Shown: in pieces, positions 12,906 to 25,006 of the stretch
Position numbering within the stretch: position 1 is the first letter of the stretch
Layout of the letters: the number at the start of each line of letters is the position of its first letter
Assembly (NCBI RefSeq): GCF_011927725.1
Contig: NZ_JAATJC010000001.1
Location: forward strand, 434,001-498,000
Length of the DNA: 64,000 nucleotides
Direction of reading: 5' to 3'
DNA from: Sphingomonas kaistensis
Lineage (GTDB): Bacteria > Pseudomonadota > Alphaproteobacteria > Sphingomonadales > Sphingomonadaceae
The notes under the pieces: generated by a model
Seen by the model: the letters and a program-made list of their open reading frames with translations, nothing else
Told to the model about the DNA's origin: nothing
Database searches by the model: none
Position numbers and translations under genes: made by a program

Positions 12906-13664
12906 CTAGGGCAGCGGCCCTTCCAGCGCCTCGACCACCTCGTCCATGCCGTCGGCGACCAGGTAAAGCGGCTGCATCGCATCGTGCCGGTAGGGCGTCG
13001 CCACCGCCGTTGCCGGCGTGAACCGCCGCCGCTCGATCGCCGGATCCTCGAGGCTCTTGGCGGCTTCCCCGAAGCTCGACGCCAACCCCGCGCCAAGGAT
13101 GCGGGTCTCGCCCTCCTCCCGGACCAGCCCGAACTCGATCGTGTGCCAGTACATCCGTGCGACCTTGTCGCCCTCACCCGCCGCAATCGCCCTCACGCCC
13201 ATTTCGCCGAACGTCCGCATCGCGTCGGCCACCGCCCGGTCGGCCAGCATCGGCACATGGCCGTAGATGTCGTGGAAGCAGTCGGGCTCCTCGAGATAGT
13301 CGAGCTCGGCGCGGGTGCGGATGAAATTGCCGATCGGGAACACCCGCTCACCCAGCATCGCGAAGAACGCCTCGTCGGGTACCAGCCCGGCCACCGCCAC
13401 GCAGCGCCACCCGGTCAGCGGCTGCAGCCTGTCGTTCAGGCGTCCGAGTTCGGGAATCCCGCCGTCACCGAGCCCGATCCTGCCGAGCCCGTCCATGAAC
13501 CGCGACACGATCCGCCCCTGCAGCAGCGCGGTCTGGCGGTCGTGCAGGATGTCCCACGTCTCGTGATCCTCGGCGCTGAACCGGTCCCAGCCCTGGTCCA
13601 CCACATAGGCCTGCCAGCCCGGCAGCTGCGGGTTGGCCTCGGCACGATGGAATTGCTTGAGCAT
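12906..13664 (-). CDS. phhA: phenylalanine 4-monooxygenase
   Basis: Hydroxylates L-phenylalanine to L-tyrosine with tetrahydropterin and non-heme iron. It has 252 residues, the size of monomeric bacterial enzymes such as Chromobacterium PAH. The iron facial triad is H131 and H136 (CFHDIYGHVPML) and E177 (YWHTIEFGL). The start MLKQFHRAEANPQLPG was chosen over a GTG/ATG-like start nine codons upstream because the leader terminator ends just before it. PhhB, which recycles the pterin, is encoded 0.7 kb away, and HPPD follows. Expression appears to be controlled by attenuation: a terminator and a Tyr-containing leader peptide precede the gene. Confidence 0.95.
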   Translation of the reverse strand: MLKQFHRAEANPQLPGWQAYVVDQGWDRFSAEDHETWDILHDRQTALLQGRIVSRFMDGLGRIGLGDGGIPELGRLNDRLQPLTGWRCVAVAGLVPDEAFFAMLGERVFPIGNFIRTRAELDYLEEPDCFHDIYGHVPMLADRAVADAMRTFGEMGVRAIAAGEGDKVARMYWHTIEFGLVREEGETRILGAGLASSFGEAAKSLEDPAIERRRFTPATAVATPYRHDAMQPLYLVADGMDEVVEALEGPLP

Positions 13665-13691
13665 GTTGGACGGTCCTCGAGAAACGAACAC

Positions 13692-13723
13692 AAAAAAACC
13701 CGCCTGGCGGTGGCCGGGCGGGG
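13692..13723 (-). terminator. attenuator terminator in the phhA leader
   Basis: Read on the minus strand, CCCGCC (13722-13717), a 12-base loop and GGCGGG (13704-13699) form a GC-rich hairpin followed at once by seven T residues (13698-13692). This is an intrinsic terminator lying between the leader peptide and the phhA start 28 bases further on. There is no gene for it to end on this strand other than the leader. Confidence 0.8.
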
Positions 13724-13753
13724 TGGCGGAAAGCTGGTCCTGTCAGACGCGCG

Positions 13754-13813
13754 TCAGCCGATCCCCACCTCGTGGCGATAATAAGGAGCGGCGATGGCGA
13801 CGTGCGCGGTCAT
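13754..13813 (-). CDS. putative phhA leader peptide with Tyr-Tyr codons
   Basis: A 19-residue frame, MTAHVAIAAPYYRHEVGIG, ends in TGA about 30 bases before the terminator hairpin of phhA. Codons 11-12 are two consecutive TAT tyrosine codons; tyrosine is the product of PhhA. No purine-rich ribosome site precedes the ATG. A CATAAG -10-like element (13822-13827) lies only eight bases upstream, so the transcript may be leaderless, as known for trpL of Sinorhizobium. Codons 15-17 contain GGTGGGG, which can pair (one G-U) with CCCCGCC in the ascending arm of the terminator. The attenuation role is inference. Confidence 0.6.
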   Translation of the reverse strand: MTAHVAIAAPYYRHEVGIG

Positions 13814-13891
13814 GGGCGGAGCTTATGCGCGTTCGAACCTGAATGGAAGCCGACCCTTTCGAACCGCCTCCTCGCTCCCCATCTCGGCCCC

Positions 13892-14235: not shown

Positions 14236-14385
14236 ATGACCGACGAAGGCAAGCGCCTTACCAAATATGCGGCCGTTGGCGCCCTGATCGCCATTCCGCT
14301 GCCCTTTGCAATGCCGGTCGGCGCCCTGATCGGTGCTGCACTCGGCGCCCGCAAGAATCGGCAGATCAGCGGTCGCTACTACTGA
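14236..14385 (+). CDS. small Gly/Ala-rich membrane-like peptide (49 aa)
   Basis: A 49-residue protein starting [20 protein letters not shown], 14 bases after the DOPA-dioxygenase stop, with AAAGGAAC as a good ribosome site. One hydrophobic segment (about 11-41) contains Gly/Pro breaks and resembles glycine-zipper helices, followed by a basic tail. It probably inserts in a membrane. I recognise no family. Its stop overlaps the 3' end of phhB on the other strand. Confidence 0.7.
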
Positions 14386-14612
14386 GCCGCAAGTCGGTCG
14401 ATTACCTCCGCCAGCGCGCGATCTCGGTCGGTTACCCCGCCCGCGTCGTGGCTGGTCAGGCGGAAGTCGACCCGGTTCCAGACGCTGGTGAACTCGGGAT
14501 GGTGATCGACCTTCTCGGCATGCAGCGCGACCCGCGTCAGGAAGCCGAACGCCTCGCTGAAATCGGCGAAGCGGAAGCTCCGATGCAGCGCGCCGTCCCG
14601 TTCTTCCCACAT
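14379..14612 (-). CDS. phhB: pterin-4a-carbinolamine dehydratase
   Basis: Dehydrates the 4a-hydroxy-tetrahydropterin made by PhhA so that the cofactor can be reduced again. The motif [19 protein letters not shown] with the catalytic His pair and [13 protein letters not shown] is diagnostic. The start [13 protein letters not shown] has GGGGTGA upstream and gives 77 residues. An ATG at 14648 would give 89. Family members usually have about 95-100 residues with an extra N-terminal helix, which I cannot find here in either version. It is divergent from hppD and near phhA but not contiguous with it. Confidence 0.82.
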
Positions 14613-17406: not shown

Positions 17407-18318
17407 TCAGCCGCACTGTCCCCGGTGCAGCAGCTTGTGATCGGCCAAGACCAGCGCGACCATTGCTTCGACCACCGGCGCGCCCCTGATCCCGACACAT
17501 GGATCGTGCCGCCCGCCGATGCCGATGCTGCTGGTCGGCTTGAACGCAGCGCGGAGGCGGATCGGATGACCGGTCGCGATTCCGCCGTCGATGCCGCTGG
17601 CCTGCATCAGCGGAAGGCTCGCCCGCCCGCTCGCCCGGCCGGCCGCAAAGCCCTCCCCAATCTCGACGCCCTTCACCGCGTTGATCCCCATCACCGCCGC
17701 CGCAAGGTCGGCATCGAGCTTGGCGTAGATGGGCGCCCCCCAGCCGGGCGACGCGCCCTCGGCGACGCACTCGATCACCGCGCCAAGGCTGTCCTGGTTG
17801 CCGCGCGCCTCGTCGAGCAGACTTTCCCACCGCTCTGGATCCGCCTCGCCGCCGAGCTCGGCCACGGAGGCGGTCACCGTCACCTCGGGAATGATCAGTC
17901 GCGCGATGGCGCCTGCCGCGACCCGCATCGCGGTTTCGCGCGCGCTTGCCCGGCCACCCCCGCGCGGATCGCGGAAGCCGTATTTCGCGTCATAGGCGGC
18001 GTCTGCGTGCCCCGGCCGCGGCGGCAGGCCGGCGTAATCCTTTGAGCGCTGGTCGACATTCTCGATCATCATCGCGATCGGCGTGCCGGTCGTCCGCCCC
18101 TCGTACAGCCCCGACAGGATCCGCACCCGGTCGGGCTCCTGCCGCGGCGACACGTTCTTGCCCGTTCCCGGCCGACGCTGGTCGAGGAAGCCCTGCACAT
18201 GCGCTTCATCGAGCGCGAGGCCCGGTGGGCAGCCGTCCACCACGACGCCGATCGCCGGCCCGTGGCTCTCGCCCCAGCTGGTGAAGCGGAAAAGCCGCCC
18301 GAAGCTGTTCCAACTCAC
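17407..18318 (-). CDS. aroC: chorismate synthase, unusually short
   Basis: Makes chorismate from 5-enolpyruvylshikimate-3-phosphate using reduced FMN. The start is GTG at 18316-18318 ([20 protein letters not shown]), overlapping the aroA stop. Catalytic His residues are in [11 protein letters not shown] and [32 protein letters not shown] and KPTSS...[10 protein letters not shown] are conserved. It has only 303 residues, against about 355-365 in most bacteria. Loops are shortened in the middle (around residues 150-170), after VEIGEGF, and between KPTSS and GRHDPC. The usual SNHAGG is replaced by LMQASG. The frame is intact, so it looks like a compact enzyme rather than a pseudogene. Confidence 0.88.
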
Positions 18319-19604
18319 GTCGCCACCTCTTCGATCTTCGCGCCGAGGGCCCGCATCGCGTCGCGGAACGTCGGGAAGCTGGTCCCGATCATCTCGGCCT
18401 CATCGACCGTGATCGGCGCCTGTGCGGCGAGCCCCAGCACCAGGTGGCTCATCGCGATGCGGTGATCGCCCTCGGTCCGCACCTGGCCGCCGCCGCGGAT
18501 CTGACCGCCCTGGATCACCAGCGCATCGCCCTCGGCCCGCGCATCGACGCCGCAGGCGCTCAGCCCCTCGGCCATCAGCGCCAGCCGGTCGCTTTCCTTG
18601 TGGCGAAGCTCGTCGAGGCCTTCGATCCGAGTCTCGCCCCGCGCCCCGGCGGCGACTACCGCCAGCATCGGGATCTCGTCCACCATCGAAGGGATTTCCT
18701 CGGCCGTGAACTCGGCCCCGAACAGCGGTCCGAACCGCACCCGCACGTCGCCGATCGTCTCGCCGCCGCGCCCGCGGATGTTGGACATCGCCAGGTCCGC
18801 CCCGATCCGCTGCAGCGCCATGACGAACCCCGAGCGGTGCGGATTGAGCAGTACGTCCTTCACGCTCACCTCTGACCCCGGCACAATCGCCGCCGCGCCC
18901 AGCGCGAACGCAGCCGACGAGGGATCGCCGCTGACCTCGACCAGCCGCGCTTCCAAAGTCCGCTTCGCGCCCAGCCGGGCGATCTGCCCCTCGCGCGCAA
19001 CGTCGACCCCGAACTCGGCCAGCATGATCTCGGTATGATCACGGCTCGGCACCGGCTCACCCACCTCGACCGACTGGTCAGTTCCCAACCCCGCCAGCAG
19101 CACCGCCGATTTCACCTGCGCACTCGCTGGCACATTGAGGTGCGCGATACCCCGCGTCACCGGTCCCTCGACCGTCAGCGGCAGCCGGTCGCCGCCCTCG
19201 ATCCGCACCCCCATCGCCTCGAGCGGCCCGGTCACCCGCCGCATCGGCCGCTTCGACAGCGACGCATCGCCGGTAAAGGTCGCGCGCACGCCCTGTCCTG
19301 CCGCCGCGCCCATCAGCAGCCGCACCGCGGTCCCGCTGTTGCCGCAATCGATTGGCGCATCGGGCGAGCGCCACTTGCCCCCGATCACCCGCCAGCGCCC
19401 CGGCCCGAACTGCTCCACCCTGACCCCGAACGCCCGCAGCGCGTCGGCGGTAGCCAGCACGTCGGCGCTTTCCAGCAGCCCGGCGATCACCGTCTCCCCC
19501 TCCGCCAGCGCGCCGAAGATCAGCGCGCGGTGCGACAGCGACTTGTCGCCCGGGACGGGAAAGGCGCCGGCCAGCGGGCCCGAGGGGCGGCTGCGCAGTT
19601 TCAG
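18315..19604 (-). CDS. aroA: EPSP synthase (3-phosphoshikimate 1-carboxyvinyltransferase)
   Basis: Transfers enolpyruvyl from PEP to shikimate-3-phosphate. The conserved N-terminus ([23 protein letters not shown]) lies upstream of any ATG, GTG or TTG in frame. The best start is CTG at 19602-19604, overlapping the TGA of the SDR gene as CTGA and giving 429 residues, the normal length. Other motifs: [27 protein letters not shown] and [13 protein letters not shown]. Starting at the first ATG (19490) would delete the K21/S22/R26 substrate site. Coupled by GTGA to aroC downstream. Confidence 0.92.
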
Positions 19605-24877: not shown

Positions 24878-24902
24878 AAAAAACCCGCCGGGTGAGGGCG
24901 GG
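24878..24902 (-). terminator. attenuator terminator of the trp operon
   Basis: On the minus strand CCCGCC (24902-24897), a 7-base loop and GGCGGG (24889-24884) are followed by six T residues (24883-24878). This intrinsic terminator lies between the Trp leader peptide and the trpD start codon 23 bases downstream. Its stem is the same as in the phhA leader. Confidence 0.9.
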
Positions 24903-24943: not shown

Positions 24944-25006
24944 CTACCGCCAGCGCCATCGCGCCGCCGTCTGGATATTCCGCCAGTGATGCCAGGTCCG
25001 GAGCAT
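24944..25006 (-). CDS. trpL: trp operon leader peptide
   Basis: A 20-residue peptide, MLRTWHHWRNIQTAARWRWR, with four Trp codons (positions 5, 8, 17 and 19) and a TAG stop about 40 bases before the terminator hairpin. This is the classic architecture for ribosome-mediated attenuation by Trp-tRNA. The final codons contain GGCGG, able to pair with the CCGCC arm of the terminator. A perfect TTGACA lies 32 bases upstream of the ATG, so transcription should start within about two bases of the start codon (leaderless). Confidence 0.92.
   Translation of the reverse strand: MLRTWHHWRNIQTAARWRWR

Follow-up and report, generated by a model that had tools for sequence, protein, structure and literature searches.

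Organization of the phhA locus

PhhA makes tyrosine from phenylalanine. The window, which here means the whole stretch of 64,000 nucleotides from Sphingomonas kaistensis that was analysed, carries a phhA gene on its minus strand. Its product was recognized in a profile search as Biopterin_H (PF00351, E = 7.2e-40), and the closest NCBIfam equivalog was TIGR01267, phenylalanine 4-monooxygenase (1.1e-72, 244 bits, below the 265-bit cut-off). The features of the locus are listed from upstream to downstream of phhA.

14379–14606, minus strand: phhB-like gene for a pterin-4a-carbinolamine dehydratase (cofactor recycling; Pterin_4a PF01329, E = 5.3e-25)
From 13892, plus strand: DOPA-dioxygenase-like gene (PF08883), divergent from phhA
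13840–13843, minus strand: conserved TTCA, 12 nt upstream of the -10-like box, with the same gap in most leaders that have a scored box
13822–13827, minus strand: -10-like CATAAG, eight bases ahead of the leader ATG, read from the sequence
13754–13813, minus strand: leader reading frame MTAHVAIAAPYYRHEVGIG, 19 codons and TGA, read from the sequence (ATG at 13813, TGA ending at 13754)
13778–13783, minus strand: putative control codons TAT TAT (Tyr-Tyr), read from the sequence
13763–13769, minus strand: region 2, GGTGGGG, predicted 5' strand of the antiterminator, within the leader frame and ahead of its stop codon (conserved helix with region 3, with covariation)
13717–13723, minus strand: region 3, CCCCGCC, predicted 3' strand of the antiterminator, overlapping the 5' arm of the terminator (sequence reading and pairing)
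13699–13722, minus strand: terminator hairpin CCCGCC..GGCGGG, with the 3' arm GGCGGG at 13704–13699 (sequence reading and folding)
13692–13698, minus strand: T7 tract of the intrinsic terminator, read from the sequence
12906–13664, minus strand: phhA, phenylalanine 4-hydroxylase, the putatively controlled gene (ATG at 13664, stop ending at 12906)

A preliminary description of this DNA had pointed to a 19-residue frame with two adjacent Tyr codons followed by a hairpin with a T7 tail and then phhA, to a CATAAG element eight bases from the leader ATG, and to a pairing of GGTGGGG with CCCCGCC that includes one G-U. All of these can be read directly on the minus strand, with the -10-like element at 13827–13822. 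The adjacent CCACC is an alternative partner for GGTGG, besides CCCCGCC. The nearest minus-strand gene upstream of the leader is the phhB-like gene, whose end at 14379 is some 570 bases away, with the divergent gene in between; the terminator is thus placed within the 5' region of the phhA message.

A YY leader with its stop codon 10–60 nt before a CCCGCC..GGCGGG-T terminator was found at a single place in the window, and 60 first-order random windows contained no such combination. Compared with dinucleotide shuffles, the leader has an ordinary folding energy (z = -0.24), and a generic promoter and terminator scan (sigma-70), whose terminator rule admits loops of 3–8 only, detected neither element. 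The chief support for the predicted leader is its conservation across species.

The Rfam searches bear on the idea that phhA is controlled by another cis-acting RNA, such as a T-box, a riboswitch or a protein-bound leader. No Rfam family matched at its gathering score, the T-box covariance model had no match in the leader in the strict or the permissive search, and the permissive search gave sRNA matches alone, all below the threshold (BcKCsr7, 22.3 bits where 59 are needed). Such an element would also leave the clustered Tyr codons unexplained, and we regard it as extremely unlikely.

Conservation of the leader

PhhA was searched for in 61 genomes, of which 45 were positive, including 34 of the 37 same-genus genomes (S. 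kaistensis counted) with 37 copies. The proposal of a leader had been tied to the conservation of its Tyr codons and frame in homologues, and it was borne out: a frame with Tyr codons near its end, then a CCCGCC/GGCGGG-type terminator and a T run, is kept ahead of 34 of the 37 same-genus phhA copies, and the pairing covaries. The terminator pattern was matched at all 34 same-genus leader loci. The copies without leader are both of those in G007 and the second one in G010. The C-terminal ends of the leaders read, for example, YYYPDEVGIG, YYYPLEAGTG and YAYIRRAVETS. In other families of the order, none of 10 phhA genes inspected by eye had such a leader (11 genes were found, one of them, L051, without upstream DNA).

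A covariance model (R1) was built from the 34 same-genus leaders and run on 298 genomes of the family. At E < 1e-5 it matched 12 genomes, every time directly ahead of phhA. These comprise all six same-genus genomes, together with G104 and G183 of one genus and G245, G288, G324 and G355 of another, and the Tyr leader with its terminator is accordingly also present in six genomes of two further genera. One of the matched leaders contains YYYYY. Among 45 loci of the family, leader and terminator occurred jointly in nine, all R1 matches, and were absent from the other 36.

Across the order (296 genomes, E up to 1e-4), R1 matched 25 genomes, all of this family: 22 of the same genus, G104, G099 and G501. 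The weak matches in G099 and G501 were discarded as phhA leaders, with no Tyr leader ahead of a phhA-like gene, and so was the match in G022, one of the 22, which is a Trp leader preceding a gene that resembles trpD (identified by eye from its similarity to the trpD of the window). Among the same-genus genomes that were new in this search, the loci of seven were inspected; a phhA relative lies just downstream in all seven, and a simple rule recognized the Tyr frame in six. The same-genus genome G450 had no R1 match in the order search.

Named and MAG records provided 28 more loci. Leader and terminator were found in 7/7 loci with at least 59% identity to the query (Sphingomonas sp. BN140010 twice, S. 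arenae, S. alba and three MAGs) and in 0/21 with at most 50%.

Tyrosine codons and their position

The analyses that follow refer to 43 leaders, namely the 34 of the same genus and nine other R1 matches; L013 and L052 were excluded as near duplicates from the codon counts and the swap tests. Tyr makes up 106 of 615 codons when the last 15 codons of 41 leaders are counted, against 41 of 3070 in 11 genes of the window, and 39 of the 41 leaders have at least two Tyr codons within this stretch. The ratio TAT:TAC is 93:13 in the leaders, 23:18 in the window genes and 117:137 in phhA itself at these loci.

The position of the codons is also constant, since the first Tyr of the last run lies 8–12 codons ahead of the stop codon in 41 of 43 leaders (6 and 15 in the others), with region 2 in between. 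The ribosome footprint is taken as 13 nt past the start of the A-site codon. By geometry alone, a ribosome at the stop codon would cover region 2 and one at the control codons would leave it free.

Pairing between leader and terminator

Regions 2 and 3 can form an uninterrupted helix in 42 of the 43 leaders; it has six to nine pairs, apart from that of L015 (five pairs, out of register). In 27 of the 43 leaders the helix overlaps the 5' arm of the terminator, and in 15 it abuts the arm, no more than three bases away.

Covariation was observed in swap tests and on the tree. Pairing is stronger with the own partner than with a swapped one (mean -18.87 against -15.91 kcal/mol, n = 41), and 0 of 10000 permutations reached the own value, overall and within four clades drawn by hand from the PhhA tree. 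On that tree (43 rows), one pair changed on both sides four times (C-G and G-C), the next two did so once and twice, respectively, and a further pair had nine pair-type changes, some of them one-sided; these counts omit L015, whose helix is out of register, and L039, which has no uninterrupted helix. The counted helices were selected for complementarity, which favours pairing, so the swap tests, which score own and swapped partners identically, outweigh the tree counts. On the same tree, the phhA genes of G003 and G004, labelled as same genus, cluster with the second outgroup genus.

Folding of the leader RNA

The RNA free of the ribosome was folded at equilibrium in three states for the 43 leaders. 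A ribosome placed at the stop codon covers region 2, and all 43 leaders then form the terminator. With the ribosome at the Tyr codons, the pairing of regions 2 and 3 appears in 43/43, yet the terminator pairs persist in most leaders. The expected terminator pairs fall below half of those of the stop-codon state only in L077, L036 and L058, with a partial loss in L059, L065, L074 and a few others. In the leader of the window, region 2 sequesters the terminator arm until the 3' arm has been transcribed, after which the terminator can form alongside a shifted pairing.

Simple base competition in every species was not confirmed by the equilibrium folds, most of which have coexisting hairpins, and the mutual exclusion of both hairpins is clear in a few species only. 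Because both hairpins can coexist, a kinetic or steric block would be needed in many species.

Start of the message and proposed mechanism

A -10-like box lies 6–10 nt ahead of the leader ATG in 33 of the 43 leaders (at 8–9 nt in 26 of the 33), and TTCA is found 12 nt upstream of the box in 29 of those 33. No scored -10-like box was found in the other ten leaders, which include all six of the other two genera. This spacing suggests that transcription could start at the leader ATG, giving a leaderless message, and TTCA may be a part of the promoter. In the portion of PMC7298713 that deals with it, the trpL transcript of Sinorhizobium meliloti is described as beginning with the ATG of the leader.

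Regarding these data, the leader very probably works as a ribosome-mediated transcription attenuator, with charged tRNA-Tyr as its signal and the phenylalanine hydroxylase that supplies tyrosine as its target, on a message that is probably leaderless. Clustered Tyr codons, an intrinsic terminator, a covarying pairing segment and tyrosine as the product of the controlled enzyme are all found at this locus. Transcription would start at or beside the leader ATG, and the ribosome would load on the leaderless message. When charged tRNA-Tyr is ample, the ribosome would reach the stop codon and cover region 2, and the terminator would form. When it is scarce, the ribosome would wait at the Tyr codons and region 2 would pair with region 3, which would lead to less termination and to the synthesis of PhhA.

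The terminator would be equally real if the leader acted mainly in trans, with the terminated RNA and the peptide as products that each have targets of their own. Whenever phhA is off, a leaderless small mRNA bearing a terminator would indeed be made, and there is a precedent in rnTrpL/peTrpL of S. meliloti, as presented in part of PMC7298713. However, the N-terminal half of the peptide diverges, and the C-terminal residues vary together with region 2 (EVGIG, AVETG, RAVFD). This is what selection on the nucleotides instead of the peptide would produce, and an action mainly in trans is very unlikely.

Tyrosine metabolism and the role of PhhA

The preliminary description had also supposed that PhhA is used here for tyrosine supply, and this supposition gained strength from the distribution of TyrA. 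The domain PF02153 was found above the cut-off in only three of the 37 same-genus genomes (G004, G007 and G010), the same three that PF20463 picks, with sub-threshold matches in G018, G026 and G034. TyrA was therefore absent from 34/37, and none was found with either profile in the S. kaistensis genome, for which reason PhhA would serve tyrosine supply in this organism. The absence of TyrA together with the Tyr leader points to this role. PheA, searched for as PF00800 only, was detected in eight of the 37 genomes, that of S. kaistensis included, and chorismate synthase in 26; five of the 11 genomes without the latter are less than 90% complete.

The gene neighbourhood gives further support. 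In G003, G004, G007 and G010, phhA adjoins pheA and aroC, with aroB and/or aroE, and in G010 also tyrA. These surroundings are a biosynthetic neighbourhood. Two of the four phhA copies clustered in this way, those of G003 and G004, carry the leader; TyrA is present in three of these four genomes. In the window, aroC and aroA adjoin each other at 17407–19490 on the minus strand, about 4 kb from phhA. G010 (L042) has two types of phhA; its tyrA and homogentisate dioxygenase genes are split between frames and its aroE appears to shift frame, which may reflect frame errors in the assembly.

In the sample of the family, 33 of 298 genomes had no PF02153 match and two more had sub-threshold matches only (list compiled by hand). 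As phhA is present in 31 of these 33 genomes and in 223 of the 265 others, its presence alone is uninformative. All 12 leader genomes of the family sample fall within the 35 that lack TyrA or have it below the threshold. A constant coupling of the leader to the loss of TyrA was nevertheless rejected: 20 of the 31 TyrA-less genomes with phhA have no leader (L057, L072, L110–L127), and the link is not strict because G004 and G010 hold both TyrA and a leader-bearing phhA.

Degradation of tyrosine is probably possible as well, because HPPD is encoded in the window and homogentisate dioxygenase in 34 of the 37 same-genus genomes. The presence of both enzymes would suit a catabolic phhA behind a constitutive partial terminator, in which case the Tyr leader would only protect or time the transcript, and the equilibrium folds in which the terminator and the hairpin of regions 2 and 3 coexist would fit as well. 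On the other hand, the leaders conserve the Tyr codons, the spacing between these and region 2, and the covarying helix; TyrA is absent, and phhA is clustered with aro and phe genes in four genomes. This makes a constitutive terminator quite improbable, and attenuation by charged tRNA-Tyr remains the preferred explanation.

Chorismate synthase, PheA and TyrA were all undetected in 11 same-genus genomes (G005, G014, G015, G021, G022, G025, G029, G030, G032, G033 and G035), five of them less than 90% complete. Eight of the 11 retain phhA and the Tyr leader, and no phhA was detected in G015, G022 and G032. This pattern suggests phenylalanine uptake and an animal-like supply of tyrosine.

Relation to known systems

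The attenuator of pheA in Escherichia coli senses Phe and controls the chorismate mutase/prephenate dehydratase. Like the one proposed here, it is a ribosome-mediated leader attenuator for an aromatic amino acid, although it senses Phe, whereas the phhA leader uses Tyr codons and its enzyme takes Phe as substrate. Attenuation of pheA is also mentioned in a section of PMC5343134.

The trpL-trpE(G) system of S. meliloti, as far as the relevant text of PMC7298713 describes it, is similar in having codons for the product amino acid in the leader and a terminator before the biosynthetic gene. It differs in its Trp codons and in its target, trpE(G), where the system described here has Tyr codons and phenylalanine hydroxylase. 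Its message starts at ATG, which for the phhA leader is only inferred. Predicted attenuators ahead of tyrA operons, from a prediction database, are collected in part of Table 7 of PMC1173090. They belong to the same tyrosine branch, but phhA is absent among the entries of that part and no Tyr leader frame is given there.

Regarding the enzyme, phenylalanine hydroxylase of bacteria is mostly regarded as catabolic, as is also stated in part of PMC7311316. The same portion presents it as a means of tyrosine biosynthesis in Dyella, Echinicola and Legionella, with no ordinary dehydrogenase identified in Dyella and Legionella. The supply role is the same as that proposed here, and control by a leader is not described in that portion. 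In Pseudomonas, sections of PMC1173090 and PMC5343134 report that phhABC is activated by PhhR for catabolism; the enzyme is the same, but there a protein activator acts for catabolism and here an RNA-based control for supply is proposed.

The preliminary description knew of no attenuation of phhA, and a full-text literature search, with subscription journals mostly outside its scope, agreed with this, as no published phhA attenuator or Tyr-leader attenuator was recognized among the papers listed. This is a known kind of control for an amino acid and a target gene of which no description was found, and leader-peptide attenuation would gain both. We hold only tentatively, as a possibility with the balance against it, the wider claim that this is the first tyrosine-specific leader-peptide attenuator, acting on a leaderless message in a lineage with PhhA in place of TyrA; that tyrosine comes only from taken-up phenylalanine, as in animals, where aroC, pheA and tyrA are undetected; and that antitermination proceeds without base competition where the hairpin abuts the terminator.

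A Tyr-codon attenuator is evidence, drawn from sequence, that the job of PhhA here is tyrosine supply and that the signal is the charging of Tyr-tRNA. The Tyr leader matters since most of the related genomes examined are without the usual tyrosine pathway, and it would mark biosynthetic PhhA in genomes. Moreover, the more than 40 natural leader variants would allow testing of the distance over which an antiterminator hairpin can still block a terminator.

Other leaders in the same genome

In the S. kaistensis genome, R1 also picks leaders rich in Thr/Ile and in Trp, the latter before DAHP synthase and before trpD. The presence of several putative leaders of the same build raises the confidence in the mechanism proposed for phhA.

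The Trp leader of trpD is a second putative attenuator within the window. Its frame, MLRTWHHWRNIQTAARWRWR, has four Trp codons and lies at 24944–25006 on the minus strand; a CCCGCC..GGCGGG-T terminator is located between the frame and trpD, at about 24884–24902, and trpD runs from 24855. Elsewhere in the genome, a Thr/Ile-rich leader with a terminator (L128, 516–641; G000:C1 from 2453515) precedes a gene resembling aspartokinase-homoserine dehydrogenase. Furthermore, Trp leaders with a terminator are found before DAHP synthase, reading WWRW in S. kaistensis (L149, G000:C1:1260310), where the identity of the gene was confirmed, and WW in G016 (L142).
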